The notes beneath the pieces were generated by a model that searched no databases, was not told where the DNA came from, and saw only the letters and a list, made by a program, of their open reading frames with translations. The translations under genes and the position numbers were made by a program. From Halovulum marinum (GTDB taxonomy: Bacteria > Pseudomonadota > Alphaproteobacteria > Rhodobacterales > Rhodobacteraceae): a stretch of DNA of 64,000 nt. Positions within the stretch are counted from its first letter, which is position 1. Each line of letters opens with the position of its first letter. Shown piece after piece: positions 5,847-26,383 of the stretch. The stretch is taken from assembly GCF_009697225.1 (NCBI RefSeq), contig NZ_WIND01000010.1:1-64000 (forward strand), in the 5' to 3' direction.

Positions 5847-5877
5847 AGAAGCTCATTCCTATACGATAAGGTCGTCG

Positions 5878-8144: not shown

Positions 8145-8201
8145 GAGGTCCTCCGAAAACGAGTTTCCGGCCCCTCGCAGGGCTCGGTGCGTTCGCCGCA
8201 C

Positions 8202-8270: not shown

Positions 8271-8304
8271 TCATTGCGGGCCGATGAATGGGGATGGGGC
8301 GCAG

Positions 8305-8592: not shown

Positions 8593-8611
8593 CGGAGCCT
8601 CCTTCCGCCGC

Positions 8612-9688
8612 TCAGCCGATCTTGCAGCCCCAGAAGGACGTGTGATCGGCGGCGAAGTAGCCGTCCGCGACCCGGAAATACCCCTGCAGCTCGACGGTAT
8701 CGCCCGCAGTCAGCGGCACCATGGTCTGCAACCAGATCGCGGTGGCGAGCGAGACATGGGTGGCCGAGATTTCGCCGAGGGAGCCGCGGATTTCCGTCGT
8801 GCCATTCAACACGAGCCGCCCGCGCATGCGAGCCGTGGCGCTGGCGTTGATCTTGTAGAGCAGCGTCGCGCCGAAGAGGTAAGTGCCGTCCACAGGTGCT
8901 GTGAAGAGGTTGGTCCCGGAATCGAAACAGCCCTGATCGTTGTAGTCGGTGTTGTTGAGGCCGATCTTCGTCCAGGCTCCGACGCCGACATAGTTGTCGT
9001 AGTTCGTCCAGGCCTTGAAGCGCGGCAGTTGCGGCTGGTCGACGATGCCGTTCGTGTTGTCGACGCTCAGCCCGTCGAAGAAGGTGCTGCCGTCGGCGGA
9101 GACCGCGAGGCGGAAGCGGTCGGAGCCGAAGAGCCCCACCAGCGCCTTGGTCACGAAGCCGGTCTGCAGCGTCAGCCCGAGATCGTCGCCCGCAGCCTCC
9201 TTGTTCATGGTGTAGAAGAGATCGCCGGTGCCACCCTCGGCCACGGTCTTCGCCGTCCAGAGCGCGGCGTTGAGCTTGGCCGAGAACGGGTTCGAGGCAT
9301 CCGCTGTCGTGCCCAACCCGAGCAGCGCGATGTTCTGCAGCGCGGCCGGTGTGGTTCCGACCCAGCCCCCGCCGTCATAGACCAGCAGGAGACCTTCGTC
9401 CTCGACCCATGCCCGCCAGCCTGTCCGCGGCGGCAGGCGCAGCCAGGCCCCGTCGGTCCAGAGCGCCACGTTCAGGTCCCAGCCCGCCCAGTCCCCCGTC
9501 GCGCCCGAGCCGACGATGTAACGGTCGCCATCAGTGGGGCTGGCGGGCGGCGCGGTCAGGTCCCTGTCGAGCACGGAGAGTTGCACCAGCCCGTCGAGGA
9601 TCCGCAGCGCCTCGTTGTGGGTGACGTGCTTCTGGGCCTGCGCCGCCAGGATGTAGGGCAGCAGGAGATGTGACGTGGCGTCGGACAT
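8612..9688 (-). CDS. DUF2793 phage tail-fibre protein with C1q-like C-terminal domain
   Basis: 358 residues. The N-terminus (LLLPYILAAQAQKHVTHNEALR, quoted in part: AAQAQKHVTHNEALR) and WTDGAWLRLPPRTGWRAWV are typical of DUF2793, a module found in receptor-binding tail proteins of alphaproteobacterial phages and GTAs. The C-terminal part (about 225-358), with FTAPVDGTYLFGATLLY and short beta-rich repeats, resembles a C1q/TNF-like trimerising head. It starts seven bases after the host-specificity gene with GAGG five bases before the ATG. It probably mediates adsorption, and it is intact although the virion genes are lost. Confidence 0.7.
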   Translation of the reverse strand: MSDATSHLLLPYILAAQAQKHVTHNEALRILDGLVQLSVLDRDLTAPPASPTDGDRYIVGSGATGDWAGWDLNVALWTDGAWLRLPPRTGWRAWVEDEGLLLVYDGGGWVGTTPAALQNIALLGLGTTADASNPFSAKLNAALWTAKTVAEGGTGDLFYTMNKEAAGDDLGLTLQTGFVTKALVGLFGSDRFRLAVSADGSTFFDGLSVDNTNGIVDQPQLPRFKAWTNYDNYVGVGAWTKIGLNNTDYNDQGCFDSGTNLFTAPVDGTYLFGATLLYKINASATARMRGRLVLNGTTEIRGSLGEISATHVSLATAIWLQTMVPLTAGDTVELQGYFRVADGYFAADHTSFWGCKIG

Positions 9689-9695
9689 GGGGGCC

Positions 9696-12600
9696 TCAGA
9701 AGGTTAGCGTGACGGTCTTGGGCGCGCCCCGTCCCACGAGGGCGGAGAGCTGGAAGATGCGGATGTCCAGGCTGTCTCCGGGGTCGAGCGGTGCGCCCCA
9801 GTCGGCGGTCTGCTCGGCGCCGGTGTAGGTGACGCTGGTCGTCGTGCTGCTGAGCACCCGCCTGACCTCGCTGCCCGCGAGGATCTCGACCTCGTAGGCC
9901 TCGATCTCTTCGGCAAGCGGCACCTCGAGCGCGCCCCAGCTGTCGGCCGCGAGCGCCCGGGATCGGCGCGTCCAGCGGATCGTCAGATCGCCGGGCGTAC
10001 GCGGCTTGCGCCACGGCTGCTCGACATGGGCGACCGAGAATGGCCGCAGCCCTACGCCCGCGGGCGTGAAGGTGGTGGCCACATAGGTGTCGTCGCTGAC
10101 CGGCCGGCTTGCCGGGCCGATGCGCCAGTTCCACGGCATGCCGAGATCGGCCTCGGCGACGGGCAGCGAGGCGAGCGCGGTGTCCAGCACAACGACCCGG
10201 GCGCCTTCCGGAGCCGGGTTGCCCATGGCGCCCTCGGTGCCGCGCTGACCACGCAGGAGCCGGGTGAGCTGATACCGGCCCGGCGCCAGCAGCTCGGCCG
10301 CGCCCGCCTGCACGATCTCCCAGACGCCGGGCGCGCTCTCGATGGCGAGCGCATTCGCCCCGCCGAAGAGGGCAAGGTCGGTGATGCTTTCCAGCGTGCC
10401 GGTCAGCAGATCGACCACCAGCGCATTGCCGAGATCGAAGCGCGACGTAGGCCCGGCGTAGAAATCTGCGACCAGCACCCCGATCCGGGCGCGGCTGCCA
10501 AACGTGGTCAGCAGCTCGAAGCCGTCCGTCGAGGGGCTGCGGAAAACGGCGATCTCGCCCGGCCAGGGGATGGCATGGGCCGCGATGAGCGGCCGGTGCG
10601 CCGGCTGGTCCTCGCTGATCTGCGGCAGGTCCATGAGCACCGCCGCGGGCGGGCCGAAGACGACGGCGCGGGAGAGCGCCGAGGACCGCGCCTGCCCGGG
10701 CGGCAGGTCGTAGGCCTCCCGATCCTGGCGCACGGCCTCGACGCCGCGCGCCTCGGCGTCGGCGATCGAGACCAGACGCAGCGCGACCTGCCGGCCGTCA
10801 TGGTCGAGCGCCACCACATCGGCCGGGTCCAGCGCGAGGCGCGAGGGCGGCAGACGGAACGCCGCCGTCTCGCGCCCCACCCATGCCTCCATCAACGCGC
10901 GGCGGCAGCGGCGTTCGGCTTCCTCGGGCGGCACCGCCATCGGGAAGGACTCGGAGGCGATGCGCGTCGTGTCGACCGTGATGCGCCGCGCCTCGACGAG
11001 GGCCGCGTCGTAATCCTCGTCGGCGCGGGCGACCTGCCACTTCAGGGCCTGCGGCAGTTCGGTCTCCTGGCCGCGGGTCAGTTCCAGCACGTCGCCCTCG
11101 CGGGCGGCCACCAGATCGTCGGGTACGAGGGTGGCAACGGAAGCCCGGGCGCGCATCACGAAGCGGATCACCCCTTCGGTCTCAACGGCGTCGAAGCCGA
11201 AGTGGCGCGACAGCGCGGTGATCGACGCGCGCGGGCTTTCCAGCGCCGTAATGGCGTAGCCCTCGACCGCGCCCCAGAGACCGGTGACGTCGATCCGCGC
11301 CTCAGGCATTCTTGCGCGCAGGCAGAGGTGACGGACGAGCGCCGCCAGCGACACCGCCCCGAGCCGTCCGGTCAGCCAGTGCCCGAGCCGCCAGTTCGCG
11401 CCGTCCGTCCAGACGTCGGTCAGTGCGGGGAAGAACGGGTACGGCCGCGCGTCCCACGTCCAGGCGGCGCATTCGGGCACATGCACCATCGGCCCGCCAT
11501 AGATGACGGACACCGGGTTGTTCGCGGCCTCGCCCCACCAGAGATACGTCGCCTCCAGATAGGCGCGCTGGATCGCGTCATCGCGCCAGCCCCGCGAGAA
11601 ATGCGGCGTGAAGCTCTCCGACGATTTCGGGTCGAAGAAGACGTTCGGCTGGTTGGTGCCGAGGTCGATGGCGGGGCAGCCGAGCTCGGTGAAGCGGATC
11701 GGCTTCGATTGCGGCACCCAGCCTGTGGGCACAGCACTCTCCACTCCGCCCGGGCGGTCGTGATGCGGGTTCGACCACCAGCTCCGCAGATCCTTGGTGC
11801 GGAAGACCCATGGCGCTCCGTAAGCACCATCGGTGATCAGGGTTCGGAGCTGCGCGGCACGATCCGCGTCGGAGGCGTAGAACCAGTCGAAGCCCTCGCC
11901 GCCCGCAATGTTCGACTGCAGATAGGCCCGGTCGTAGATCGCGGTCCAGCCGTCCTGCGCATCGACATGGTCGAAGCCGTCGCGCCAATCGGAGAGCGGC
12001 ATGTAGTTGTCGATGCCGACGAAGTCGATCGCCGGGTCGGCCCAGAGCGGATCGAGATGGAAATGGACATCGCCGCTGCCGTCGGCGGGCTGGTGCCCGA
12101 AATATTCCGACCAGTCGGCGGCGTAGCTTATCTGCGTGCCCGCGCCGAGGATGGCGCGGACGTCGGCTGCGAGCCCCCGGAGGGCCTGCACAGCCGGATA
12201 GGTCGAGGCGTCAGAGCGGATCGTGGTGAGCCCCCGTATCTCGGATCCGATCAGGAAGGCATCGACCCCGCCCGCGGCGGCACAGAGATGGGCGTAATGC
12301 AGCACCATGCGGCGCAGGCCCCAATCACCCGCGGCGCCGGTCCAGCTGACGGTCTCACCCGACACGGCGAAGTCGGAGGGACTGGCGGCGCCGAAGAAAG
12401 CCGCGACCTGCGAGGCCGCTACGGCGGTCCGGTCCGGACTCCCGGCATATCCCGCCGCGGGCGAGACGGTGATCCGGCCGCGCCACGGGAAGGCGGGTTG
12501 GCCGATCCCGGCCGCGTTGTCGCTGTAGGGGTCCGGCAGCGTATTGCCGGGCGGCACGTCCATCAGCAGGAAGGGTGAGAGCGTCACGCGCAGGCCGCGG

Positions 12601-13661
12601 GCCTTCATCTCCTGGATCGCCTGCACCACCGCGAAGTCGGCCGGCGTCCCGCCGAACACCGGCCGGTCCTCGGCATCGCGGCTCACGAGATGGGCATTGG
12701 CGCGGGCAACGCCGTTCACGCTCCATGTCATCGGGATGGTGGTCTTCGCCGCCAGCTCGACCCCCGGCATGACCCGGCAGTCGCCCGCGCGCAGATCGTC
12801 CCCGAACCAGGCGACGACGAGGCTGACGCTCTCGACCGCGGGCGCGCTCGCCTGCAGCCGGTCGAGCGCCATCACCATGTCGGCGGTGTCGGCACGCGCG
12901 TTCAGGTTGTCCGGGTCGGAGGAATCGCCGCCGCCCTTGCGGATGCCCTCGGTGGCATAGGTGAACTCGCCCGACGCCGGGATCATTGTGACCGCGCGCA
13001 CGACCCCCTCGGCGGTGTCTGGATCGGCGAGCGGGCGGAACACCTCGAAGCTGAGCTGCGGCAGACGGTTGCCGAAGCTGGCGAGCGGCAGCTCCTCGAA
13101 GACGACATAGGCGGTGCCGCGCCAGGCGGGTGTGCTGGCCGCGCCCATCCTGGCCGCGATGAACGGGTCCGCCGTCTGCGCCTCGTCGCCGGGATACCAG
13201 CGCCAGGTAACGCCCGAGAGGTCCATCGGCTTGCCATCGGCCCAGATACGCCCGATGCCGGTGATTGGACCCTCTGACAAGGCAACCGCGAAACTCGCGT
13301 AATAGAGATGCTCGGTGGTCTGGACCTTCCCGCCACTGCCGCCCTTGCCGCCGCCCTGCGTCGTGGTCCGCGTCTCCTCGCGGAAATCGGTCGCCCAGAT
13401 CACATTGCCGCCCATGCGCATGCGCCCGAAGACCCGCGGGATGACCGCGCCTTCCGTCGACGAGGTGATCCGCAGACTGTCGAGCCGCTGGCCCTCGATC
13501 CGCTGCGCAGGTGCGAGGGACGAGACGATGAAGCTGTCGACCACGGAACCGACGGCCGATCCGACGAAGCCGCCGATGGTCGCGGCGCTGACGCCGAGGA
13601 TCGTGCCGCCGATGCTGCCGCCGATGGCGGAGCCGGCGACGCCGAGAACGAGAGAGGCCAT
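9696..13661 (-). CDS. GTA/phage host-specificity tail-tip protein with TIM-barrel domain
   Basis: 1321 residues. A glycine/alanine-rich hydrophobic N-terminus (MASLVLGVAGSAIGGSIGG) is followed by a tail-hub region, a glycoside-hydrolase-like TIM barrel in roughly residues 440-720 (FLIGSEIRGLTTIR, FVGIDNYMPLSDW, WWGEAANNPVS) and a phage-tail C-terminal region (ALDPADVVALDHDG, YQLTRLLRGQRGTE). This is the architecture of the large 'host specificity' protein encoded at the end of GTA clusters in Rhodobacterales. It should cap the tail and contact the cell wall. It starts six bases after the NlpC/P60 stop. The frame is open throughout, so it is not visibly damaged. Confidence 0.85.
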   Translation of the reverse strand: MASLVLGVAGSAIGGSIGGTILGVSAATIGGFVGSAVGSVVDSFIVSSLAPAQRIEGQRLDSLRITSSTEGAVIPRVFGRMRMGGNVIWATDFREETRTTTQGGGKGGSGGKVQTTEHLYYASFAVALSEGPITGIGRIWADGKPMDLSGVTWRWYPGDEAQTADPFIAARMGAASTPAWRGTAYVVFEELPLASFGNRLPQLSFEVFRPLADPDTAEGVVRAVTMIPASGEFTYATEGIRKGGGDSSDPDNLNARADTADMVMALDRLQASAPAVESVSLVVAWFGDDLRAGDCRVMPGVELAAKTTIPMTWSVNGVARANAHLVSRDAEDRPVFGGTPADFAVVQAIQEMKARGLRVTLSPFLLMDVPPGNTLPDPYSDNAAGIGQPAFPWRGRITVSPAAGYAGSPDRTAVAASQVAAFFGAASPSDFAVSGETVSWTGAAGDWGLRRMVLHYAHLCAAAGGVDAFLIGSEIRGLTTIRSDASTYPAVQALRGLAADVRAILGAGTQISYAADWSEYFGHQPADGSGDVHFHLDPLWADPAIDFVGIDNYMPLSDWRDGFDHVDAQDGWTAIYDRAYLQSNIAGGEGFDWFYASDADRAAQLRTLITDGAYGAPWVFRTKDLRSWWSNPHHDRPGGVESAVPTGWVPQSKPIRFTELGCPAIDLGTNQPNVFFDPKSSESFTPHFSRGWRDDAIQRAYLEATYLWWGEAANNPVSVIYGGPMVHVPECAAWTWDARPYPFFPALTDVWTDGANWRLGHWLTGRLGAVSLAALVRHLCLRARMPEARIDVTGLWGAVEGYAITALESPRASITALSRHFGFDAVETEGVIRFVMRARASVATLVPDDLVAAREGDVLELTRGQETELPQALKWQVARADEDYDAALVEARRITVDTTRIASESFPMAVPPEEAERRCRRALMEAWVGRETAAFRLPPSRLALDPADVVALDHDGRQVALRLVSIADAEARGVEAVRQDREAYDLPPGQARSSALSRAVVFGPPAAVLMDLPQISEDQPAHRPLIAAHAIPWPGEIAVFRSPSTDGFELLTTFGSRARIGVLVADFYAGPTSRFDLGNALVVDLLTGTLESITDLALFGGANALAIESAPGVWEIVQAGAAELLAPGRYQLTRLLRGQRGTEGAMGNPAPEGARVVVLDTALASLPVAEADLGMPWNWRIGPASRPVSDDTYVATTFTPAGVGLRPFSVAHVEQPWRKPRTPGDLTIRWTRRSRALAADSWGALEVPLAEEIEAYEVEILAGSEVRRVLSSTTTSVTYTGAEQTADWGAPLDPGDSLDIRIFQLSALVGRGAPKTVTLTF

Positions 13662-13667
13662 TTCGGA

Positions 13668-13997
13668 TCAGACCTTGGCTGGAAACAGGAAGGCGAAGGC
13701 GATGCGCCGCCGCCAGGCAGCGGTGAGCGGTTCCTCGATGACGCCGAGTCGCTCATAGGCGTGGAGGAAGCTGTCGCGCCCGGTGAGGATCCCGACATGC
13801 TTGGCAATGGCGCGGGGCTTCATGCGGAAGAGGACCAGCGTTCCCGGACCGGCTGCCGCAGGTTCCACTTCGATCATCATCCGCCGCGCGCCCTCGGCCA
13901 GAACCTCGCGCGGTCCGGTCTCGCCCCAGTCGCGGCTGTAGGGCGGGATCGGGAACGGCTCGGGGCCCACCACCTCTCGCCAGACGCCGCGCGCCAA
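13668..13997 (-). pseudogene. NlpC/P60 tail peptidase, N-terminally truncated
   Basis: The frame begins at a TTG within sequence LARGVWREVVGPEP, a segment that in intact GTA/phage NlpC/P60 proteins follows the catalytic Cys. The rest is typical: GTLVLFRMKPRAIAKHVGIL, with the conserved HVG containing the catalytic His, then FLHAYERLGVIEEPL and a short Phe-rich tail. The upstream part with the Cys is gone. Instead, sequence of a small terminase gene abuts out of frame near 13997-14003. The product should be inactive. It lies directly upstream of the tail-tip gene, as expected. Confidence 0.7.
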
Positions 13998-14529
13998 CCT
14001 TCTGCATGGCCGCCGTCTCGATGGTCACCTCGTGGCCTACCGCTTCGCTGCTTGAGGCCGTCAACTCCGCCGCCATCAGCGCAGCCACCCGCGCCGGCCA
14101 GTTCACCCACGCGTCGCGTTCCTCGCGCGCGAGCCGGAAGACCAGCGCGGTGGCGCGGTCGCGGTCGACCAGCTCACCCTTCAGCTTGGCGAGCCGGATG
14201 CGCCGCTCCTGCGCCTTCAGCACCTCATGCGCCGTCTTCGCCTGCAGGAACGTCGTGCCTCCGCCCGTCGCAGGAGCCGCGAGGCCCTGTTCCTTCAGCG
14301 TGTCGCCGACCGCCGAGACCGCCGCCTCCGGCACCGGCTTCAGCTTCGGCGCGGGCGCTTTTCTGGTCTTCGACGGATCGGTCGTCTCCGCCCGCAGCCG
14401 GTCCGAAGCCGCGGCGTCGATGCTGCCATCCTCGTGCAGGACGAGCCGACCGGCGGCCTTCGCCTTCTGGATTGCGCCGCGCGACAGCCCGACATGGGCG
14501 GCGTACTGGCGCTCGCTCATGCCCTGCAT
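13998..14529 (-). pseudogene. Small terminase subunit (Nu1-like), C-terminally fused out of frame
   Basis: Starts at ATG 14529 with GGAG seven bases upstream. The N-terminus MQGMSERQYAAHVGLSRGAI is a winged-helix DNA-packaging domain of the Nu1 type, followed by a charged linker and ALVFRLAREERDAWVNWPAR and a hydrophobic segment. After AAMQK the sequence switches to NlpC/P60-derived DNA in the wrong frame, and the frame runs on to 13753. The native C-terminus is therefore missing. Everything normally found between the small terminase and NlpC/P60 (large terminase, portal, protease, capsid, tail tube, tape measure) is absent, which implies one deletion at this junction. Confidence 0.7.
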
Positions 14530-15871: not shown

Positions 15872-16915
15872 TCATCCATCGGCCAGCAGTTGAGCTGCGA
15901 GAGTTCGGAGCGCATGCGCCGCGACCAGCGGGACCACTCCGTTGCCACAGAGCCGAAGCCTGTCCACCCGGTAGGCCAGCCCATCAGCGCCTCGACGAAC
16001 AGCGGGTTCAAGGTCCGGGGCGTGTCGCAGGAACTCCCGCCAGCCGTCGGCGTCACCAGGACCTGGCGGCCAAGCAGCCCGTTCACCGGCGTGTTCGCGA
16101 GGCTCGTCGCCCCGTCCTTGTGATCCCGCGCTGTCGGCGTCATCCAGAGCCGGGTCGCATCGCAGAGCGTCGACCCGTCGTTGCGCGGGCGCGCCGTCTC
16201 GCTGCGATTGCTCGTCGAGTTCCGCGTTCCCTTGCTGTCGCCCGCCAGCGGCGTCGGCCAGAGCCGCATCATCTCGGTCCTGTTCCCGCCGCTCGACCGC
16301 GTCCCGGAGCAGGCACGCGGGGTCGGCCAACTCGTCGCGCTCGCGGTGGGCGAGGATGAAGAGCCGCTCGCGCCGGTGGGGCGCGCCGACTTCCGCCGCC
16401 GTGAAGAGGCCCGCCGCAAGGCGGTAGCCCATGCCGACCAGTCCTCCGGCGACTTCGGGGAAGCCGAGGCGGAGATGATGCGCGACGTTCTCGAGGAAGA
16501 CGAAGGGCGGCTCGGTCTCGCCGACGACGCGGGCGACATGCGGCCAGAGGTGGCGCGGGTCGTCCGCGCCCCGGCGCTTGCCCGCGACGGAGAACGGCTG
16601 GCACGGATAGCCCGCAGTGACGATGTCCACCGCGCCGCGCCACGGGCGGCCGTCGAAGGTGGCAACGTCGTCCCAGACAGGCGCCCGATCCAGGGCCGCG
16701 TCTTCCATCCGCGCCACGAGGATGGCCGCGGCGTAGGCGTCCCGCTCGACATGACCGACAGTGCGATATCCGGGGCATGCGAGGTGCAGCCCGAGGTCGA
16801 GCCCGCCGGCGCCGGAGCAGAGCGAGAGGCCGAAGAGGCACGCGTCGCCGGCTCCGGCAGACAGGCCGGAGGAAGGTAGAGCCACGCCATCCACGTCGTC
16901 AGGCCGCGTGGGCAT
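15872..16915 (-). CDS. Phage-borne DNA (cytosine-5) methyltransferase
   Basis: 347 residues from ATG 16915. Family motifs are in order: I LSLCSGAGGLDLGL, IV GYPCQPFSVAGKRRG (catalytic Cys in PCQ), VI FLENV, VIII RRERLFILA, a target-recognition region, and X CGNGVVPLVAAHAL. It should transfer a methyl group from SAM to cytosine C5. No cognate nuclease is adjacent, so it is probably an anti-restriction or regulatory enzyme of the prophage. Its start codon lies inside sequence that reads as recombinase on the other strand, so the N-terminus seems to have been re-made by the deletion that truncated the recombinase. Confidence 0.85.
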   Translation of the reverse strand: MPTRPDDVDGVALPSSGLSAGAGDACLFGLSLCSGAGGLDLGLHLACPGYRTVGHVERDAYAAAILVARMEDAALDRAPVWDDVATFDGRPWRGAVDIVTAGYPCQPFSVAGKRRGADDPRHLWPHVARVVGETEPPFVFLENVAHHLRLGFPEVAGGLVGMGYRLAAGLFTAAEVGAPHRRERLFILAHRERDELADPACLLRDAVERREQDRDDAALADAAGGRQQGNAELDEQSQRDGAPAQRRVDALRCDPALDDADSAGSQGRGDEPREHAGERAAWPPGPGDADGWREFLRHAPDLEPAVRRGADGLAYRVDRLRLCGNGVVPLVAAHALRTLAAQLLADG

Positions 16916-17822
16916 CCTGCTGTCCTTCGCCCAGTTCGAGCGGGAGGTCACAGCCGAACGCATCCGCGACAAGGTCGCCGCCAGTCGGAAGAAGGGCATG
17001 TGGATGGGCGGGGTGCCGCCCTACGGCTACCGCGTCGAGAACCGGAAGCTGGTGATCGACGAAGACGCCGCCGAGCATGTCCGCTGGATCTTCGCCCGCT
17101 TCCTCGAGATCGGATCGGGGACGGAACTGGCGCGGGAGGTCGCGATACGCGGCCTCCGCACGCCGCGTGGCAACCGGATCGACAAGAAGTACCTGTACCG
17201 GTTGCTGAACAACCGCGCCTACATCGGCGAGGCGGTCCACAGGGGAGAGAGCTATCCCGGCGAGCACGACGCGATCATCGACCGCCCAACATGGGACCGC
17301 GTCCACGCCATCCTGCAGGAAAGCCCCCGCAAGCGCGCCGCGCGCACCCGCGCCGAGACGCCCGCGCTGCTGAAGGGACTGCTGTTCGGACCGGACGGCG
17401 CGGCCTTCTCGCCGACGCACACCCGCAAGGGCGACAGGCTCTACCGCTACTACGTCAGCCAGACAGTGCTGAAGCACGGCGCGGGAGCCTGTCCGGTCGG
17501 CCGCGTGCCCGCCGGCGAGATCGAGGCGGCCGTCATTGACCAACTCCGCACCGTGTTTCGCCAGCCGGAGATCGTCGCGGGCACGTGGAAGGCGGCGCGC
17601 GCCCACGCCGACGACATAACCGAATCCGACGCCCGCGCGGCCCTGCAGCAGGTCGATCCCCTGTGGGACGAACTGTTCCCCGCCGAGCAGGCACGGATCG
17701 TCGCGCTGCTGGTCGAGTGCGTGGACATCGGCGTTGATGGCTTGAACATCCGGCTACGCGTGGACGGCCTTAGTGACCTCACGCGCGAGATGCTTGCCGG
17801 CGATATCGAGGCCGCAGCATGA
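16911..17822 (+). pseudogene. Large serine recombinase lacking the catalytic domain
   Basis: Sequence similar to large serine recombinases starts abruptly at GILLSFAQFEREVTAERI, the helix that normally follows the resolvase catalytic domain, and continues through KKGMWMGGVPPYGYRVENR, the PF07508-type recombinase domain, a zinc-ribbon region (YRYYVSQTVLKHGAGACPVG) and a helical C-terminus. The open frame extends upstream to 16761, but those residues are antisense to the methyltransferase and are not recombinase. The N-terminal domain with the nucleophilic Ser is missing, so the protein cannot catalyse strand exchange. It was probably the integrase of this element. Confidence 0.75.
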
Positions 17823-18211
17823 CACGCGGGGCTGCCATCCCCGACACCGTGACACTCCACGTCCCGTTCCGGATCGTGAAGCGCGGCGGCCGTAAGGAGA
17901 TGCAGTTGCCGGCGGGCGTCAAGCAACCGTGCCGGACCGACGGCACACTGGTCAAAGCGTTGGCCCGTGCATTCCGTTGGAAGAGGTTGCTGGAGTCAGG
18001 CGAGTTCGCAACCATCGCCGAACTGGCCGAGCACGAGGGCATTGCACCTTCATACATGACCCGCGTCCTACGGCTCGCCCTACTTGCGCCTGACATCGTG
18101 GAGGCGATCCTGGATGGGCAGCAGGGGCGAGAGGTGACGCTGGTGAGAGTGCTGGAGCCTTTCCCAGTTGAGTGGGAGAAGCAACGATTTTCAAAGATAG
18201 AAACTACCTGA
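17819..18211 (+). CDS. Recombinase-associated HTH protein
   Basis: 130 residues; the start ATG overlaps the recombinase stop (ATGA), so it was translationally coupled to it. The N-terminal part is basic (VKRGGRKEMQLPAG). A helix-turn-helix follows at FATIAELAEHEGIAPSYMTR with VLRLALLAPDIVEAIL, a layout seen in small proteins encoded directly after serine recombinases in alphaproteobacterial elements. It may be a directionality or regulatory factor; this is inference from the position. The 120 bases to the next gene hold nothing that I recognise. Confidence 0.6.
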   Translation: MTRGAAIPDTVTLHVPFRIVKRGGRKEMQLPAGVKQPCRTDGTLVKALARAFRWKRLLESGEFATIAELAEHEGIAPSYMTRVLRLALLAPDIVEAILDGQQGREVTLVRVLEPFPVEWEKQRFSKIETT

Positions 18212-18331
18212 ACTGCCCTCAGCTGCCGTTGGCCGTTTCGCGATTTGATAAGGTGCAGCTTCACTGAAGCGGACATCCAGGGCCGCACGCAGGGCGGCCA
18301 TTCAAGCCAAGGCCAACCTATCCTCCGGGGG

Positions 18332-19420
18332 TCAGTTTTGCTCAGAAGTAAACAGTCCCAAACTGTGCGGTCTTAGGATCGCTTCCACCACGCGTCGGAC
18401 GCCTACGATGGGATTGTCCGAACTGATCGTAGCGGGAAGTTCCATACGAAAAGTGACTGAATGTGCATCCACGTGCTGATGGGCGATGACGTCATCGCGC
18501 CTCAGGACCTCGACCCCTGGATCTGCCATGTCGTACCCACGAACGAAAGTCACGCTGAATTTAGTCGTAAACGGTGCCTCTTTGACCATCGTGGCATGCT
18601 CGTATCCGATGCCTGACTCTGCGCCGTACACAGACACCCGCGTGAGAAACTCGTCGACCAAGCCACTAGCCCCGGTGGCCTTGAGACGCTCGAGGATGCT
18701 CTCCACCAAGGAAGGGATCGACAAAGCAGGCGCATTGAGATCAGCTTGGCACAGGCCGATACTTACGAGGAGCAGACGCGCTTCACCTGCCGTGTCATCA
18801 CTGGCAGGGGTAGGTTCAATCTGGTGGATGCCATGGATTGCGTGACTTGAGGTGGTGCCAGTAGTGGTTTTTATTTCTACGCCCGTGCCTTCCCATGTGA
18901 AGTCCCTTGCCGAGCGGCGCCAGCCATCCCAAGCTTGGACGATTGGTCCGACCTGAGGATCGGTAGCCCGTCGGCACAGAGCGTCGAGTAGTAGCAGTTC
19001 CCCAACAAGTCCGAGAATCGCATTCTCGGAGATCTCCAAGCGCTTAATGGCAAGTTCGATCAGCGGCTCGGTGACGGCAAAGGCGCGCTCTAAATTAGCA
19101 TCAGCCTTCTCGCGCAGCAGTTCAGCGGCAATAAATGCACCGACCTGGTCGAAATGCCCCAGCGCAGGCAAGCAAATGCGGTTTGCGTTCAGCGGAGGCA
19201 GAGTTTCACGGTGCCAGGAGTGGTAGTGAAGCGCAGTCTTCACTGCGCCGGTCCGGGGGCTTAACTCTTCGCCTGCAAGGAACAGTTCCAAATGGCCGCG
19301 ACTATTCCGAGCGATCCCGACCACTTTCGCATCCGTCAACCAAGTAATGGCTCGGTCTTCTCCATTTGTGCCCGCCGGAACGACGTTGATCTGGTTTAGA
19401 ACTGCTTCGTAGCTGGTCAT
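18332..19420 (-). CDS. PD-(D/E)XK nuclease-like protein (DUF4420)
   Basis: 362 residues. The restriction-endonuclease core is visible: GLVGELLLLDAL with Glu141, then ARDFTWEGTGVEIKTTTG with Asp173, Glu182 and Lys184 (D...ExK). This matches the DUF4420 family, described as PD-(D/E)XK proteins that co-occur with Z1-domain helicases. It is the last gene of the four-gene operon, eight bases after the Z1 gene. The probable job is DNA cleavage directed by the other subunits. Codon use is moderate in GC, between the low-GC patch and the core. Confidence 0.75.
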   Translation of the reverse strand: MTSYEAVLNQINVVPAGTNGEDRAITWLTDAKVVGIARNSRGHLELFLAGEELSPRTGAVKTALHYHSWHRETLPPLNANRICLPALGHFDQVGAFIAAELLREKADANLERAFAVTEPLIELAIKRLEISENAILGLVGELLLLDALCRRATDPQVGPIVQAWDGWRRSARDFTWEGTGVEIKTTTGTTSSHAIHGIHQIEPTPASDDTAGEARLLLVSIGLCQADLNAPALSIPSLVESILERLKATGASGLVDEFLTRVSVYGAESGIGYEHATMVKEAPFTTKFSVTFVRGYDMADPGVEVLRRDDVIAHQHVDAHSVTFRMELPATISSDNPIVGVRRVVEAILRPHSLGLFTSEQN

Positions 19421-19428
19421 GGGAGTTT

Positions 19429-22245
19429 CTACTTAATGATGGTCGCCCCAGCACGGGTGGCAGAAAACTGCTCTGGACCTCCCGCAGGGAGACAGACTCC
19501 AACTGCGACCGTGGGATGCTCGTCGTCCGAGTGTTGATTGACGTAGAAGAGAATTTGACCGTCGGAGCCGCTGGGTCGCCATCCTGTGTTGCTGCTGGAC
19601 GGCACGTCAGCGCAACGGTGATAGTAGTCGAAGTAGACGTCGCCGCGATACTGACCCGGGCCGGCGTTGGGGTCACTCGCACCCCAAGTGGTCTGGAGTT
19701 CGCCTCCCGCCACCCTCTTTGTGGTGGCGCGTATGTTGAATGGGAGCTGTGCCAATGGACCTTTGGATATGGTGGCGCCACCTCCGTAACGAATGCCGAT
19801 CCAGAACCGTGGTTGCTCAGCGTTCTTTCGCGTGAGATCGGCGTAGGACCACAGATTGCTGGGCTGGCCGGTGACAAATAGGCCCGTAATCGGCCGAGAG
19901 AGACTGGCCGACCAAAGCCGAAGGTAAGCGGCGATGGCATAGGGACAGGCTCGCCTCGGCTCATTTCCCTCACTATGCCTCACCGGTGGGCGATAGAAAG
20001 GTGCGTCCGTCAGTGGGGCGACTGCGTTTGCGCGAGCTTCGATATCGCTCCAGAAGTTCGCGTAAAGCCCCTCGCTCCCGGGACGGTAATCCGCGAAGTT
20101 GAGGCTATCCAAGAGTTCGGCGGCCTCGGTCAGTTCGAGTGGAACATTTAGGATCCGGCCCCGCAGCACATTGGCGACAGTGAGGTCGCTGGATTCGGAT
20201 GGCCGAACAAAGAGTCCAGCCACGACGTCTGCATTGGGATCCGGCCGGTGGCTGTCATTGATGACCGTCACGAAGGGGCGGGCTCCCGGTGATAGCGGAA
20301 GGTTACCCAGGCCTGCGATCTTGCCTGTGGCTTCGAAATTTAGCCCCTGCAAGACGGTAGGTTTAGGAGCGTCGCTCACCATGCGCTCGATGATGGCAGT
20401 TCGAACTGCTTCGTCGACATCGTGATAAGCACTGAAGAGGGAGAGTTGGTCGCTGGAGGCGAAGACGCGGCACAACTCAATATATGACCCGCGGTAGCCG
20501 AACCAGCGCTGCATCTGCATCTGGGTGTCTGCCAACGGGTTGGCCGATGAGCGCTGAAACAACGTTGTGGTCATCCCTTCCAGCGTCAGCCCCCGCGCCA
20601 TGACATTTCCTGAGACAAAGATCGTGCAAAGGTCGCGAGCTGCTCTCCATTTACCGGTTTCTGCATCCAGGGTTGGTGCGTATGCAGGGCGATCGTCAGC
20701 GTTAGGGTCGCTGTTAACCACTGCGATCCTAGTTCCAGGGATCATCTCCCTAACCAATAGCTCTTCGACCGTCTGCCAGTCCGGGAAACTCGCCGGTGGC
20801 AGGAGGTCGAACTCCTCCTCGATCACTTTGGCGGAGGCACGATACTTTTTAAGCCATTGCGCCCATGGGGCGGGATCCGCCAGAAGTTGTTCCACCAAGG
20901 CGTGCGGAAGCCTGGCATCTCCCTCATCGAGCATATCTCGAGCCGTCGCTCGATCCTGAAACCCTGCCCAGATCAAGAGATCCTCAGCACCCTTGAAGTG
21001 GTGCTGGATTGCTGCAGAAGGGTGATACAGCATCGAGTGCGGCGAAGACGCGTTGGTAAGGGCTTCTTCCTTGGTGTCGAACTGCATTGCGAGTGCGGAC
21101 GCCGGGCCGAGCTTTCCAGAGCGGTAAAGGCGGATGGCGCCCGCTACCAAGAATGCTCGGACGGCGTCGGCGAGGTCCTGCTGCACGGAGTTGGTGGTGG
21201 GCACGCAAAGTTTGGCTGCCTCCGCGCGGCGATAGAATACCTCACCGCCAGTGTAGCATGAACGTATCCCAGCCGCCTCGGGGTAAGTCGATGAGCGAGG
21301 TGCGTTGAGATTGCCAGGGTCGGTCGTGTCTACTGGATGGCCGACGTCAAGTGGCGTGCGAAGAGAGATCAGGAAGTCTCGTGGTGCCAGGGGGTTGTGA
21401 TCCTCCTGAAGGAGGTTGGCCTGGGGTGTCGCCGTATAGGCGATGTAGGTCGAGAAGAGATTTTCAGGCGAACCTTGTGGAGGATCCCAGAGGTTGGCGA
21501 TCGCACGCGGGATCTGCTTTAGGTTGCCGTAAATGGGGTCCTGCGAGGACTCAACTACGGCGTCGAGAATTGAGCCATCGTCGGCCTCATCGTCAAGCAC
21601 GAGCATGTGGACGGTCCGACCAAGCTCCTTAACTTCTTTAAAAACGTTGTCGCGGAGGCTTGCTGCGAGGGCATGCAGATGGTCAGTCTGCTTCATCGCC
21701 ACGATGATCAGAGGCATGCCCTGACGCAGCCGTTTTCGAACCTGTGCAGACGACAAACGGTAGGTGGTTGTCAGCGAGTGGGCCTGTTCTGACAGAGCGA
21801 TGCCAGGCGCAGGACACAGCAGGCGGCGTTTAACTTTCTGTGCGTTTTCCTCGCCAGAGTCCAACTGCTGCTGCAGCCTCTCATAGGTTTGGCGCCACAA
21901 GGAGAGGCGGGTCCCGGCGAGTACAACGATGATGTCGAGGCCGTTGTCGATGGCCAAGGCTGAGACACCCAGCATTGAAGCGGTTTTGCCAGACTGAACC
22001 GAACCCATGACGAGTCCCGTGCGCGAGCGGCGGAATGACCACTCATCGGGCTTCGCGGTGTCGGCGGCCAATATTCCGCGCTGCAAAATGTAGCGAGAGT
22101 CTGCCTCAACTGCGGCACGCGCTGTGTCGGTCAAGCCGGCGAGTTGAGCCTTGTACCTTGCCCACCAAGAGTCCACCTCTTGGGGAGCGGGTGGATTGAA
22201 GTAGACGTGCTCGACGAGTGGGGAATGTCCTGGCACCGCTCTCAA
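19429..22245 (-). CDS. Z1-domain superfamily II helicase-like ATPase
   Basis: 938 residues. Helicase motifs: Walker A GSVQSGKT (81-88), motif Ia-like VVLAGTRLSLWRQT, Walker B LVLDDEADD (218-223), and YIAYTATPQAN as motif III. The Z1 domain follows in the second half, with IFVSGNVMARGLTLEGM and QMQMQRWFGYR resembling motifs V and VI. Z1 was defined by Iyer, Abhiman and Aravind in predicted restriction systems linked to MutL/MORC-type ATPases. The start overlaps the stop of the DUF262 gene by four bases. Expected role: ATP-driven translocation or strand opening for the partner nuclease. Confidence 0.85.
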   Translation of the reverse strand: MRAVPGHSPLVEHVYFNPPAPQEVDSWWARYKAQLAGLTDTARAAVEADSRYILQRGILAADTAKPDEWSFRRSRTGLVMGSVQSGKTASMLGVSALAIDNGLDIIVVLAGTRLSLWRQTYERLQQQLDSGEENAQKVKRRLLCPAPGIALSEQAHSLTTTYRLSSAQVRKRLRQGMPLIIVAMKQTDHLHALAASLRDNVFKEVKELGRTVHMLVLDDEADDGSILDAVVESSQDPIYGNLKQIPRAIANLWDPPQGSPENLFSTYIAYTATPQANLLQEDHNPLAPRDFLISLRTPLDVGHPVDTTDPGNLNAPRSSTYPEAAGIRSCYTGGEVFYRRAEAAKLCVPTTNSVQQDLADAVRAFLVAGAIRLYRSGKLGPASALAMQFDTKEEALTNASSPHSMLYHPSAAIQHHFKGAEDLLIWAGFQDRATARDMLDEGDARLPHALVEQLLADPAPWAQWLKKYRASAKVIEEEFDLLPPASFPDWQTVEELLVREMIPGTRIAVVNSDPNADDRPAYAPTLDAETGKWRAARDLCTIFVSGNVMARGLTLEGMTTTLFQRSSANPLADTQMQMQRWFGYRGSYIELCRVFASSDQLSLFSAYHDVDEAVRTAIIERMVSDAPKPTVLQGLNFEATGKIAGLGNLPLSPGARPFVTVINDSHRPDPNADVVAGLFVRPSESSDLTVANVLRGRILNVPLELTEAAELLDSLNFADYRPGSEGLYANFWSDIEARANAVAPLTDAPFYRPPVRHSEGNEPRRACPYAIAAYLRLWSASLSRPITGLFVTGQPSNLWSYADLTRKNAEQPRFWIGIRYGGGATISKGPLAQLPFNIRATTKRVAGGELQTTWGASDPNAGPGQYRGDVYFDYYHRCADVPSSSNTGWRPSGSDGQILFYVNQHSDDEHPTVAVGVCLPAGGPEQFSATRAGATIIK

Positions 22246-24176
22246 CTCTTCGGTTCGATGCGCATCCGCTGCAACGACGCGTACCCAGAGGTTCCAAACT
22301 GCAGACGGACTGCCTCAGCTGCTTGATCAGGGTCGATTTCCAATAGTTCGAGCAGACTTTTGCTGATCTTGGCGATGTAATCCCACTGGGTTTTCGTCTG
22401 CGTCTTTTCGGGACGTTCCCAGTCCTCAGCTTCCTCGCTCGCTTTTCGGATAGTATCAGCGTTAGCCTCGATGCGATCCTCGATGTCGTCTGGCGAGGCC
22501 GCCAAGGCCATGGCAATGCCGACCAGTGAACCTACGAGTTGGAGTTCCTGCCACTTGGCGCCCTTGCCGCCATCCTTGAACTGATCAGACCACAACTCAT
22601 CGTGCGCTGAGTGGAGTTCGACAGCGTGTAGCAGCAGCTTGAACAGCTTGTTTAATGTCGATGAGTCGGCTAACGGGTGCTGCTTGTTCTTCTGGATCGC
22701 GATCAGCAACTGGTCGATGTTGCGGCTAGTCGATGCCAAGTCTTTATCTTTGGTGTCATGCACCAAGACCGAGATGACCCAGGCGAGAACCTTAGTGCGC
22801 TTATAGCGCGTGCCGCCAAAACCGTAGTCTGTCAGCGCCTCACCAAGGCGGTCAAGATCGTGGATGCCGGCAAGCGACCCGGAGATTTTGGCGACATCAG
22901 TGTTTGGGTCGGCGTCGCCGGCGGCGGCTAGGGTCGCGCGAGTAAGTTCGACCTCGTGGTAGACGGCGTTACGGATCTCTTCAGCATTCAGGTGCACACC
23001 CTGCTTGTTGTAGAGGCGAAAGACTTCATGGATCTGGGCTTGACTGGCCTTAGTGTATTCGATGACGGGGATCTTGTACTGTGCCGTTCCCTCGAACAGG
23101 TACTCAATGGTGGTTTGCTCACCAGCGACGTCGATCACCTGCGCCTTGATTTGCGTGTAGTACTTTCCGCGGAGAGGCTCAAGGTAGGAGCCAACCAGCC
23201 CGCCGTCTCCGGTCGTTCGCAGCTTGAATGGGAAGTAGTATTCGTTCTCATCTGCGGATTTGAGTGGGCTACCTTCTAGCGCTTTCCACGCGCGGCGAAA
23301 CGCAGGGTAATCGTCGTTAAAAAGATCTGTCAGATTCCTCTTACCCTGGTCATCAAGACGTCCTTGTTCGTTGAATCTTTTATCTTTGTGACGAGCAGTG
23401 ACCTCCGCAACCTTCTGCTTTGCGGCAGGGTGCTTTCCTACAAACCGGAGAATGGCCGTGAGCCTCTGCTTGCCGTCAACGACCTCATGCGGTGTCGAAG
23501 GTCCGGTTCGCAGCAAAATGATGGATGGCAAAGGTACGCCACGCAGGATGGACTCCAGCAAGGACTGACGGTCGCTGTTGGTCCATACATCACCACGCTG
23601 GTACGACGGCGTCAGGTTGGGCGCCCTCATGGTGAGTTGGTAGATCGGCCATACGTCGGCCTTTGCCGTGACAGGCTCTGGGCTTACCACTTCCTCGATC
23701 CCGTCGATCTCGGCCCAAGCGTCAGCCCATGACTGGGTTGCGGTTGCGCGGTTAGTGCCCTTGGCCTCGAATTCTTCGAGAAAATTTTCCTGGAGTCTTA
23801 CCGCTTTTTCCACACGCTCGTTTAGGCGCTCAAGCGCGCGAAGACTCAGCGGCGGGTTGGCGCCTCCGGGAGCAAGGAGGTCGGTCGGTTCAAGGTTGAA
23901 CTCAGCGATTAGTGCCTGAAGGAATCGTTCGCCGCCTGTTAGCGGAAGGTCCTCGCTTAGGCTCAGCCAGCCTTGAACCTCAGCCACTTTGCTCATCCAC
24001 GAGGCAGAGGCGAAGTCGACGTCACCGCTGCTGAAAATTGACGAAACCGAGCGAACGCCGTCGGGCGTGTCAGAAGCCTCGGAAAGTGTTGCCAGCCCGT
24101 TGGCGATGCTTTCCAGGAAGAGAACCCGTTGGTCTTCCTCGTCGAAGTCGTTTTCTTGTTCGATATGATCAGTCAT
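22242..24176 (-). CDS. DUF262 (GmrS/ParB-like) protein
   Basis: 644 residues. After a 170-residue helical N-terminus come the DUF262 motifs YQRGDVWTNSDRQSLLESIL (192-) and EVVDGKQRLTAIL (DGKQR at 234-238), the ParB/Srx-like nucleotide-binding core found in GmrSD-type and BREX-associated enzymes. IHEVFRLYNKQGVHLNAEEIRN (quoted in part: LYNKQGVHLNAEEIRN) is the conserved later segment. DUF262 proteins use NTP hydrolysis to gate DNA cleavage. No HNH (DUF1524) nuclease domain is evident here, so catalysis may be by the PD-(D/E)XK partner. It overlaps both neighbours by four bases. Confidence 0.8.
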   Translation of the reverse strand: MTDHIEQENDFDEEDQRVLFLESIANGLATLSEASDTPDGVRSVSSIFSSGDVDFASASWMSKVAEVQGWLSLSEDLPLTGGERFLQALIAEFNLEPTDLLAPGGANPPLSLRALERLNERVEKAVRLQENFLEEFEAKGTNRATATQSWADAWAEIDGIEEVVSPEPVTAKADVWPIYQLTMRAPNLTPSYQRGDVWTNSDRQSLLESILRGVPLPSIILLRTGPSTPHEVVDGKQRLTAILRFVGKHPAAKQKVAEVTARHKDKRFNEQGRLDDQGKRNLTDLFNDDYPAFRRAWKALEGSPLKSADENEYYFPFKLRTTGDGGLVGSYLEPLRGKYYTQIKAQVIDVAGEQTTIEYLFEGTAQYKIPVIEYTKASQAQIHEVFRLYNKQGVHLNAEEIRNAVYHEVELTRATLAAAGDADPNTDVAKISGSLAGIHDLDRLGEALTDYGFGGTRYKRTKVLAWVISVLVHDTKDKDLASTSRNIDQLLIAIQKNKQHPLADSSTLNKLFKLLLHAVELHSAHDELWSDQFKDGGKGAKWQELQLVGSLVGIAMALAASPDDIEDRIEANADTIRKASEEAEDWERPEKTQTKTQWDYIAKISKSLLELLEIDPDQAAEAVRLQFGTSGYASLQRMRIEPKS

Positions 24177-25558
24177 TCAGCAGCTCTTAAGGGTTCGAAG
24201 TCAGAGGTTATGCTCGACGTGGGCCGGATGAGCCCGTGCAACAACCGTTCGGCAATTGCTTTGACAACGCGAGCGTTCACTGCGTTTCCCAAAGCTTTGT
24301 ACGCGTCGATGTCGGACGCGGGCAGTTGGATACCACCGAGGCTCTGAAGTTCAGCGCATTCGGCTGGCGTAATGTAACGACGCTCGCCGGCCAGATTGGC
24401 ACCGAGGATGGGCACTTGGGTCTGCGTGAAGGAGACAAGACTTGGGGAGGTAGTGGGACGCTTGATCCGTAGTCCTGACGCACGCACCTGTAGCACGAAG
24501 TTGTCAATGTCACGGTTCTCACCTTGCGCGTTCCACTCCATCTTCTGGAAGCTAGACGGGAAGCTTTGTGGGCTCCATCTTGAGATCCAAGGATCGATCC
24601 AGTGGCAGTTGGCTTGGTAGAACTCGCGGTTTTGCCTGATAAAAGTCCGCTTCCACTGCGGAAAATTCAAGTCGCCTGGGCGATTAGCATGACTCGGTAT
24701 CCTCGTAAGTTGTTCGTCGAGCGAGCAATCTAGGGACTGGCCGAAGCTGCCCTTGAAACCCAACCGCCTAAAACCCCACACAGGTCTCCGAACCCAGACC
24801 CCTGCTGGTGTCTCGTCCAAGTAGGGATAGGTCGCCCCAAATTCCATCGACCAGATCGGGAAAGAAGGGAGCTTCAGCGAAGCCGGCGAGCTTCGTAGGA
24901 AGTCGCCCCACATGTCAATGGCTCGCAACGTCTGTTCCGGGATGGCACGCCCGGAATGCCCTTCTTGGCGCAGCACCCATTGGATTTCGGTTGGACCTTT
25001 ATGCTTCGCGGGCCACTCATAATTATCGAGACCCTGTAGCGATCCTACAAAATATGCGCGGTCTCGCACCTGTGGAATGCCGAAATCGTGGGGCGAGAAG
25101 TGCTCTACTGCGACGGAGTAGCCGAGTTCCTCCAACAAGCGAATGATCGTAGTCTTGGTGCGGCCGCCGTCGTGCTTGAGGATATTGGGAACATTCTCCA
25201 AGATGAAATGTAGTGGCCGCTTAACGCGCAAAATGTCGTGCACCTTGAAGAAGAGATTGCCCTGATTTGTGTCTTTAAAGCCTAGTTGGTCTCCCGCTTT
25301 AGAGAACGGTTGGCAAGGAAAGCCTGCTGTAAGTACGTGGTGATCGGGCACATTGAGGGCTATGATTTCGTCGCTGCTCAACTCATTGAGGTCACCCCAA
25401 GCATCGATACCGAAATTGACCTTATAGAGGGCCTTCAGTTTGGGCTCCCTCTCTGCAGCGAACACACCACGCCCGTCCAACTCCTCGAGCGCGACGTGGA
25501 AGCCACCCAGCCCAGCGAAGAGGTCGACAAAATGGAATGCCTCTTCACTGGTTCCCAT
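24173..25558 (-). CDS. DNA (cytosine-5) methyltransferase of the Z1 operon
   Basis: 461 residues. Motif I FVDLFAGLGGFHVAL, motif IV GFPCQPFSKAG with catalytic Cys82, motif VI FILENVPNIL, motif VIII VRDRAYFVG, a long target-recognition domain (about 190-400), and motif X ALGNAVNARVVKAIAERLL. It starts at ATG 25558 after a strong GGAGGGGG. It is the first gene of the operon and overlaps the DUF262 gene by four bases. It should mark the host DNA so that the downstream nuclease complex ignores it. The 155 bases upstream are AT-richer and probably contain the operon promoter, but I see no convincing pair of boxes. Confidence 0.9.
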   Translation of the reverse strand: MGTSEEAFHFVDLFAGLGGFHVALEELDGRGVFAAEREPKLKALYKVNFGIDAWGDLNELSSDEIIALNVPDHHVLTAGFPCQPFSKAGDQLGFKDTNQGNLFFKVHDILRVKRPLHFILENVPNILKHDGGRTKTTIIRLLEELGYSVAVEHFSPHDFGIPQVRDRAYFVGSLQGLDNYEWPAKHKGPTEIQWVLRQEGHSGRAIPEQTLRAIDMWGDFLRSSPASLKLPSFPIWSMEFGATYPYLDETPAGVWVRRPVWGFRRLGFKGSFGQSLDCSLDEQLTRIPSHANRPGDLNFPQWKRTFIRQNREFYQANCHWIDPWISRWSPQSFPSSFQKMEWNAQGENRDIDNFVLQVRASGLRIKRPTTSPSLVSFTQTQVPILGANLAGERRYITPAECAELQSLGGIQLPASDIDAYKALGNAVNARVVKAIAERLLHGLIRPTSSITSDFEPLRAAE

Positions 25559-25713
25559 TTTTTTGGCCCCCTCCGTCTCTGCCTGATCGGGCGAGATTTC
25601 TCATGATCTGCTCACAACTTTACATAGCCCCACTTCATGTTGTATGTCCAACAGTCTGTTGACCACCAAGCGGACTTGACCACGAGAGGGGTGCGGATGA
25701 CCTTCCCCCTGGA

Positions 25714-26293: not shown

Positions 26294-26383
<90 letters not shown>

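Follow-up and report, generated by a model that had tools for sequence, protein, structure and literature searches.

A DCM-DUF262-Z1-DUF4420 operon of Halovulum marinum as a probable restriction-modification system with DUF262 in the place of a GHKL ATPase

The window analyzed here is a stretch of 64,000 nucleotides from the alphaproteobacterium Halovulum marinum (contig NZ_WIND01000010.1, positions 1 to 64,000), and the system in question is an operon of four minus-strand genes occupying 18332-25558. In the list of open reading frames (ORFs), they follow the order DCM, DUF262, Z1, DUF4420. The first gene (24173-25558) encodes DCM, a cytosine-5 DNA methyltransferase of 461 amino acids that matches Pfam DNA_methylase (1.5e-56). 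It is followed by a 644-residue DUF262/GmrSD_N protein (22242-24176; 4.9e-24), a 938-residue Z1 helicase with a TTG start (19429-22245; 6.5e-27), and, as the last gene, a 362-residue DUF4420 PD-(D/E)XK nuclease (18332-19420; 2.1e-17). All four Pfam-A matches exceed the curated cut-offs. Structure models of the DUF262 and DUF4420 proteins give moderate fold matches, and the Z1 helicase also has partial matches to MzaC. The DCM/DUF262 and DUF262/Z1 junctions each overlap by 4 base pairs (bp), and an 8-bp gap separates Z1 from DUF4420. According to Pfam-A, all four genes belong to non-GHKL families, and a GHKL ATPase (MutL, MORC, or paraMORC) is not among them. Additionally, home-made profiles found no GHKL or AIPR ORF in window positions 10001-36000. 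A preliminary description of the operon had named the same four families, the overlaps and the gap, the absence of MORC and AIPR genes, and a DUF262 protein without a visible HNH domain. The layout agrees with the ORF coordinates, the identities with Pfam-A, the missing MORC and AIPR genes with the profile scan, and the missing HNH domain with Pfam, the structure model, and residue conservation.

A survey of the kind proposed in the preliminary description finds the gene set again in 77 other genomes, and a plasmid of Neorhizobium carries it too. The search pattern was a codon pattern for MQMQRWFGYR, part of the Z1 subfamily motif DTQMQMQRWFGYR (residues 573-585; 20491-20529, minus strand), and was applied to a collection of 84,980 species genomes. 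It matched 77 loci in 77 genomes, some of them metagenome-assembled. Judged by record titles, they comprise 44 Actinomycetota, 29 Pseudomonadota, 2 Myxococcota, 1 Dehalococcoidia, and 1 Phycisphaera. Genes were counted in up to 20 kb around each Z1 locus. DUF262 is present in 76 of the 77 genomes. It lies immediately upstream of Z1 on the same strand in 73 of them, 72 called by script and one (L149) with frame-broken genes. In G412, G426, and G448, the contig begins at or inside Z1, and DUF262 with an adjacent DCM is found on another contig. DUF4420 is present in all 77 genomes: 75 loci (73 by script, plus L149 and L165) and, in the final two genomes, another contig. A linked DCM is found in 75 of 77, within the fetched stretch in 72 and in the three split genomes. 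For each locus, the comparison uses the DCM with the best score within 20 kb, which need not be the one next to the other genes. In 52 of the 72, the nearest DCM lies upstream on the same strand; in the others, it is inverted or downstream. Vsr, expected beside a 5-methylcytosine (m5C) methylase, is frequent (26 of 77 loci, all 26 matching Pfam Vsr). A profile built from AIPR ORFs that are annotated or confirmed by Pfam finds AIPR in none of the 77 loci.

Spacing is equally constrained. Computed from the nearest possible start codon, the DUF262-Z1 gap is at most 20 bp in all 72 measured pairs, with an overlap in 35, and the Z1-DUF4420 gap is at most 20 bp in 71 of 74, with an overlap in 41. 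Stop codons were flagged inside some Z1 genes; the one inspected (L049/L126) shows one open frame in the ORF tables. By tblastn, one plasmid relative covers most of the protein, that of Neorhizobium sp. EC2-8 (L007), whose gene order is dcm-DUF262-Z1-PD-(D/E)XK. The plasmid is typed as conjugative, and its dcm and Z1 genes are each split over two frames. Within the class of H. marinum, the operon is rare, and the DUF262 protein (P0003) has no match at 1e-20 in 384 other genomes of that class. No relatives were found in viral contigs with P0003, A1, A2, or the motif pattern. The four-gene set is more than a chance assembly.

The catalytic residues of all four proteins are essentially invariant. 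Conservation was scored over homologues at least 80% as long as the window protein, with the window protein included and the Neorhizobium protein where it is long enough; this length filter reduced the rows from 75 to 74 for DUF262, 77 to 76 for DUF4420, 79 to 74 for Z1, and 74 to 73 for DCM. In DCM, each residue of the PCQ catalytic motif (residues 81-83; 25310-25318), of E121-N122-V123, and R165 and R167 is conserved in 73/73. W217, P231, P234, and W236 of the target-recognition region, whose bounds are presumed from the usual motif order, are conserved in 71 of 73, and the target regions of 71 of the 73 rows link at 35% identity or more. Together, these features suggest, at the sequence level, that the DCMs of the family aim at a common kind of target. 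In DUF262, every residue of a DGKQR motif (residues 234-238; 23463-23477) is conserved in 74/74, and the motif sits at the place of the DGQQR described for GmrS (PMC4619093). The Z1 protein consists of a helicase part with a Walker A motif and a DEAD-like box, the Z1 domain, and a C-terminal part. The Walker A motif GSVQSGKT (residues 81-88; 21982-22005) retains K87 in 74/74, and DDEADD (residues 218-223; 21577-21594), at the DEAD-box position, retains D218, D219, E220, D222, and D223 in 74/74 and A221 in 73/74. DTQMQMQRWFGYR is common to the window and Neorhizobium Z1 proteins, and two generic Z1 genes have DTLMQMGRWFGYR there. In DUF4420, E141 (18998-19000), D173 (18902-18904), and both residues of E182-x-K184 (18869-18877) are each conserved in 76/76, a set like the E-D-ExK residues described for the nuclease of MORC-type Z1 operons (PMC2292703). 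All these motifs are on the minus strand. The mutated key residues in homologues that the preliminary description allowed for are not seen in these rows.

The predicted folds give matches at moderate scores. The DUF262 model (mean predicted local distance difference test score, pLDDT, 85.5; 45 sequences) has a helical N-terminal extension (residues 1-163), a ParB/Srx-like core (about 172-395), and an all-helical C-terminal half. The core resembles BrxU (Z 8.0 over 132 residues, 3.8 Å), SspE (Z 7.8 over 167 residues, 4.4 Å), and, more distantly, Noc (Z 6.6) and ParB (Z 6.0-6.3; 93-98 residues for these two), and the N-terminal 163 residues fall outside the BrxU, SspE, and ParB matches. Using hhalign, residues 139-172 of the host ParB, ending in ENVQRVDLNAVEE, align to DUF262 residues 367-401, ending in YNKQGVHLNAEEI, over 34 columns with 35% identity; this match (E 0.038, probability 1.4%) is weak alone and falls inside the fold match. 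For HNH/DUF1524 in the DUF262 protein, Pfam up to E 1 gives only GmrSD_N. The model has no strand beyond residue 376 and no beta-beta-alpha nuclease unit, and residues 409-644 hold no Asn or His at 93% conservation, with H522 at 90% in the 45-row alignment. For DUF4420, the Pfam match covers residues 129-269, and the model (pLDDT 89.7) places E141 in a helix, D173 beside strands, and E182 and K184 in strands. Residues 130-341 match SfiI best (Z 5.1 over 132 residues, 5.3 Å), and EcoRV ranks third (Z 4.3 over 127 residues, 5.3 Å). Sequence searches of the PDB with P0003, P0002, and P0001 gave no matches. With profiles, DUF262 finds BrxU (7p9k) at E 0.13, behind two ribosomal chains, and DUF4420 finds lectin chains only (E 0.1-0.5).

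The choice of DUF262 as partner is particular to one branch of Z1 helicases. A control search with PF10593 in 200 genomes of the same phylum gave 12 Z1 genes besides that of the window. None of these 12 regions holds an operon-type DUF262 (own profile, E 1e-3). AIPR is common but not universal in GHKL-Z1 restriction operons. Among the control loci, Pfam HATPase_c_3 neighbors Z1 in 8 of 12 (L166, L168-L174), AIPR occurs in 7 of 12 (L166-L169, L171-L173), and 9 of 12 have GHKL and/or AIPR. A further locus (L177) encodes an NgoFVII-type PLD-B3 nuclease. The other two (L175, L176) have neither GHKL nor AIPR among the scanned ORFs and form their own branch; no Pfam family matches the large ORFs beside them, which may belong to another Z1 variant. 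A tree was built from 15 other Z1 proteins, two of them with very long branches, and 26 of the 74 full-length proteins of the subfamily; in it, the subfamily splits from the others at 100/100. The conserved pairing, its absence from the 12 controls, and the separate clade indicate that DUF262 is the partner of one Z1 clade rather than a stray neighbor. DUF262 thereby occupies the place held in related operons by a GHKL ATPase (MORC, paraMORC, or MutL), and the variant composition proposed in the preliminary description gains support (76 of 77 genomes against 0 of 12 control loci).

Among three comparison plasmid Z1 loci, that of a Hymenobacter plasmid (L010) includes an ATP-binding protein and a DUF262 gene at 12474-14048, which is on the opposite strand and beyond HNH and HEPN genes.

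Across 68 rows, pairwise identities correlate most strongly between Z1 and DUF4420 (r = 0.962) and between DUF262 and Z1 (0.918), and least between DCM and the others (0.717-0.778). The operon thus appears as a tight restriction trio with a looser methylase. Three loci (L089, L104, L155) carry a distinct DUF262 allele, which by sequence comparison is a natural gene swap. Their DUF262 is 53-57% identical to that of their nine nearest loci, and their other genes are far closer (DCM 83-92%, Z1 76-83%, DUF4420 78-89%); against a tenth locus (L106), the other three genes are 69-76% identical. The DCM target region is 92% identical between L104 and L145, 92% between L155 and L093, and 85% between L089 and the window. 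DCM is exchanged as well, being 51-55% identical in L161 and L162 where the other three genes are 66-82% identical. A domain mosaic within DUF262 was considered and rejected, as the divergence of the swapped alleles spans the whole gene. DUF262 as the main sequence reader was also rejected, because the DCM target regions of the three pairs remain 92, 92, and 85% identical despite the exchange of the whole DUF262 gene. The swapped alleles may read the same site, which weakens this second rejection.

The four genes mostly move as a unit, as the nucleotide block shared with nine chosen loci (18251-25681; blastn) ends close around them. Its low end lies at 18251-18361 in seven of the eight loci that reach there, and extends to 16914 in L095 (Cognatishimia); its high end lies at 25599-25681 in seven of seven. 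The guanine-cytosine (GC) content of the operon stretch is 56-59%, against about 70% on either side. The operon adjoins a tRNA-Ser(GGA) gene (26294-26383, minus strand), a fragment of an rve_3 insertion sequence (IS), and a serine-recombinase ORF from which the resolvase part is mostly missing. The tRNA-Ser flank is shared with L138 (Maritimibacter) and L095, and L095 shares the recombinase side as well. This flank is a probable integration neighborhood. A second copy of the tRNA 3' end was not found in the window, and one copy with a single mismatch lies on a different contig of the host genome.

Several neighbors lie beyond the operon. The serine-recombinase ORF (16761-17822, plus strand) looks damaged, as it retains only the end of the resolvase domain (profile positions 113-145). 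It is overlapped by a second cytosine methyltransferase gene (15872-16999, minus strand), and the stretch from 16914 onward on this side is the part common to L095. Beyond the recombinase side, 7470-14529 (minus strand) encodes phage or gene-transfer-agent-like tail genes (GTA_TIM, Phage-tail_3, Rcc01698_C, DUF2793). A cluster at 2189-6663, near the end of an rve-domain IS transposase, encodes radical SAM, class II aldolase-like, and nucleoside-phosphorylase-like proteins and has a low GC content (46-50% in 3-7 kb). On the Neorhizobium plasmid, 17817-20661, downstream of the operon and on the same strand, may hold a further module of three proteins, of which one weakly matches ParB-HTH, another weakly matches HNH_5, and the one between them is an unknown protein; a Sacsin-domain protein is encoded upstream on the opposite strand. 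At L120, a GHKL ORF (4535-6217, minus strand; HATPase_c_3 7.7e-11) adjoins the DCM, and both are opposite to the DUF262-Z1 operon. Possibly these are two systems with one shared methylase, or a transitional arrangement.

The observed composition, its conservation, the catalytic residues, the predicted folds, and the partner choice point to an ATP-dependent restriction-modification system of the Iyer/MZA/CglI kind. This is probably what the operon encodes, with a DUF262 NTPase of predicted ParB-like fold replacing the GHKL ATPase and AIPR. The biochemical steps, the methylation target, and the defense role itself would, on sequence grounds, be as follows. DCM would methylate a cytosine target on host DNA, as its intact motifs and the Vsr partners of related loci suggest. 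DUF262 (a predicted ParB/Srx-fold NTPase), Z1, and DUF4420 would form the restriction side. On DNA without the host mark, DUF262 would license the complex by binding or hydrolyzing a nucleotide, and the Z1 helicase would spend ATP on translocation along the DNA or on remodeling it, as has been proposed for N.CglI. The DUF4420 PD-(D/E)XK nuclease would then cut. The role of DUF262 as a nucleotide-controlled license for Z1 and DUF4420 is modeled on two precedents. In CglI/NgoAVII, the Z1 protein is reported to have to hydrolyze ATP for cutting to occur, and methylated sites stay uncut (PMC4267653). For SspE, the NTPase activity of DUF262 is described as the switch of the nuclease (PMC10952713). 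By analogy with GmrSD, BrxU, and SspE, DUF262 may thus gate the nuclease.

This restriction-modification reading has a more specific and rather doubtful form. GHKL proteins such as MutL and MORC use ATP to close on DNA, and for ParB-fold proteins the nucleotide is CTP or NTP. A ParB-fold DUF262 clamp that holds or marks unmethylated DNA might recruit the Z1 motor and the PD-(D/E)XK nuclease, as a convergent replacement of the GHKL clamp. If so, the DUF262 allele swaps under a conserved DCM target region would reflect phage-inhibitor pressure on the clamp.

A modification-dependent defense is an unlikely alternative. Here, DUF262 would sense phage hypermodified cytosine in the manner of GmrSD and BrxU, or the m5C made by the host DCM, much as SspE does with phosphorothioate (PT), and would trigger Z1 and DUF4420. 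Among solved folds, those nearest to the DUF262 core are indeed modification sensors, of which BrxU is described to act on 5-methylcytosine and 5-hydroxymethylcytosine and SspE on PT marks (PMC10952713), and DCM is linked in 75 of 77 genomes. However, the nuclease domain of BrxU and SspE is in the same chain, and none is recognized in the operon DUF262. Related operons in which Z1 and E-D-ExK nucleases accompany DCM are read as restriction-modification systems in PMC2292703, and CglI is reported to leave methylated sites uncut (PMC4267653). Additionally, Z1 is broken in the one genome with neither DUF262 nor a linked DCM, a single case that agrees with the expectation from self-toxicity.

It is also improbable that the operon acts by abortive infection, with DUF262 sensing a phage product or nucleotide change and freeing Z1 and DUF4420 on all DNA, and DCM only protecting or dampening. 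The whole-gene exchange of DUF262 in L089, L104, and L155 speaks for this, since a trigger sensor, more than a sequence reader, could be replaced with the rest of the operon, including the DCM target region, kept. Nevertheless, the dense coupling to DCM and the Vsr partners point to methylation-based discrimination of self from non-self, and the AIPR gene of sister operons, named for abortive infection, is absent from all 77 loci. Finally, a mobile-element maintenance or conflict module, addictive through post-segregational restriction and not chiefly antiphage, is very improbable: the operon adjoins the tRNA-Ser gene, the IS fragment, and the truncated recombinase, has the same flank in L095 and L138, and resides on a conjugative-type plasmid in Neorhizobium, but the contigs that carry the loci are unrelated, the block they have in common is mostly confined to the four genes, and, for restriction-modification, addiction and defense are not exclusive.

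Several points weigh against the operon being a restriction-modification system with DUF262 in the GHKL place. Because the Z1 motif served to select the 77 genomes, the partner rate is valid for the motif-defined subfamily only. The control covers the phylum of the window, whereas 44 of the 77 relatives are Actinomycetota. Two genomes have no linked DCM. In one (G414/L107), a DCM match lies in two pieces (40% and 44%, E 5.6e-34) on another contig. The other (G401/L094, Aquamicrobium) has a Z1 remnant (375 aligned amino acids), DUF4420, a weak DCM match elsewhere (E 1.2e-13), and no DUF262 match at 1e-10. A GHKL ORF on the opposite strand lies near two of the 77 loci (L106, L120), both Pfam HATPase_c_3. 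The GHKL profile, built from eight Pfam-confirmed control members, may miss distant families, and the Sacsin-domain ORF beside the Neorhizobium operon gave no signal with it. Frame changes break genes in L149, L165, and the Neorhizobium plasmid, and the DCM target regions of L096 and L142 do not link to the other 71. The fold matches are modest, as Z 8.0 and 5.1 are within the range that the tool calls common; for DUF4420, an unrelated chain (6skl, Z 4.7) scores below SfiI but above EcoRV, and Foldseek against the PDB returned nothing at E ≤ 0.001 for either model.

If the restriction-modification reading is right, the Z1-helicase restriction family reaches further than its core of operons with GHKL ATPases. 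It would offer a natural comparison, in which the methylase, helicase, and nuclease types are alike and the nucleotide switch is different. DUF262, which has mostly been seen as the first half of type IV enzymes made of one chain, would by analogy gain a role as the regulator of a separate PD-(D/E)XK nuclease. The unit of four genes is compact, and the genomes that carry it, several of them metagenome-assembled, are assigned to five phyla.

Protein scans against PADLOC-DB and NCBIfam and searches of open PMC text, which leaves out subscription papers, found no system of identical composition. The possibility that the operon was an already characterized system, raised in the preliminary description, was thus not borne out in these sources. 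In the open text, the sole DUF4420 match is PMC5379612, which holds no DUF262; no paper pairs DUF262 with AIPR, none among the matches listed has both the Z1 domain and DUF262, and PMC7251935 lists the Z1 family in a table. In PADLOC-DB, DCM is best matched by generic methylases and DruM, parts of Z1 by MzaC, and DUF4420, weakly, by MzaD. MZA, whose MzaC and MzaD are represented in NCBIfam and PADLOC, was rejected as a classification, as GHKL and AIPR are missing and the equivalog scores are 125.5 against a cut-off of 1500 bits for MzaC and 26.9 against 420 bits for MzaD. Current tools would probably miss the operon, since Z1 and DUF4420 score far below these cut-offs and DUF262 matches PADLOC models over its core only.

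Systems with DUF262 form one group of relatives. GmrSD, BrxU, SspE, and DndI (DUF262 with HNH/DUF1524) share the DUF262 core with a DGxQR motif. Unlike them, the operon DUF262 has DGKQR, a 163-residue helical N-terminal extension, and no recognizable HNH, and the nuclease is a separate protein. Membership of GmrSD was therefore rejected, although the DUF262 core and NTP motif are present. Menshen (NsnA) and PD-T4-2 also have a DUF262 protein with the nuclease elsewhere, and the PADLOC model of NsnA, the DUF262 gene of Menshen, matches DUF262 residues 165-408, the core only (6e-22). The partners in Menshen differ, including a predicted OLD nuclease as described in PMC10952713.

Systems with Z1 form the other group. 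A Corynebacterium diphtheriae BH8 island is described as holding a Z1 helicase, an EcoRII-like nuclease, Dcm-HTH, DUF4420, and three unclassified proteins (PMC5379612). It likewise unites Z1, DUF4420, and a Dcm-like methylase, but, by that description, adds the EcoRII-like nuclease and names no DUF262, three of its proteins being unclassified there. The MORC/paraMORC-Z1-NRE-DCM operons (Iyer, Abhiman and Aravind 2008, PMC2292703) also place a Z1-type superfamily 2 helicase beside an E-D-ExK nuclease and DCM, often with Vsr. Their MORC and paraMORC ATPases are proposed to loop DNA between recognition and cut sites, and the passages of that paper on MORC replacements name only GHKL families. The operon has the same helicase-nuclease order as the control loci. 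In contrast to GHKL-Z1 operons and MZA, it lacks a GHKL ATPase and AIPR, has DUF262 in their place, and belongs to a separate Z1 clade. The preliminary description was right about this variant composition but overlooked the absence of AIPR from all 77 loci, the frequent Vsr partner, and the CglI/NgoAVII relative. CglI/NgoAVII is the closest biochemically characterized relative and, as reported in PMC4267653, likewise combines an m5C methylase, a Z1 helicase/ATPase, and a separate nuclease whose cutting needs ATP hydrolysis. Its nuclease is a PLD-B3 protein that binds the target itself, and no DUF262 is described, whereas that of the operon is a PD-(D/E)XK protein without a recognized DNA-reading domain.

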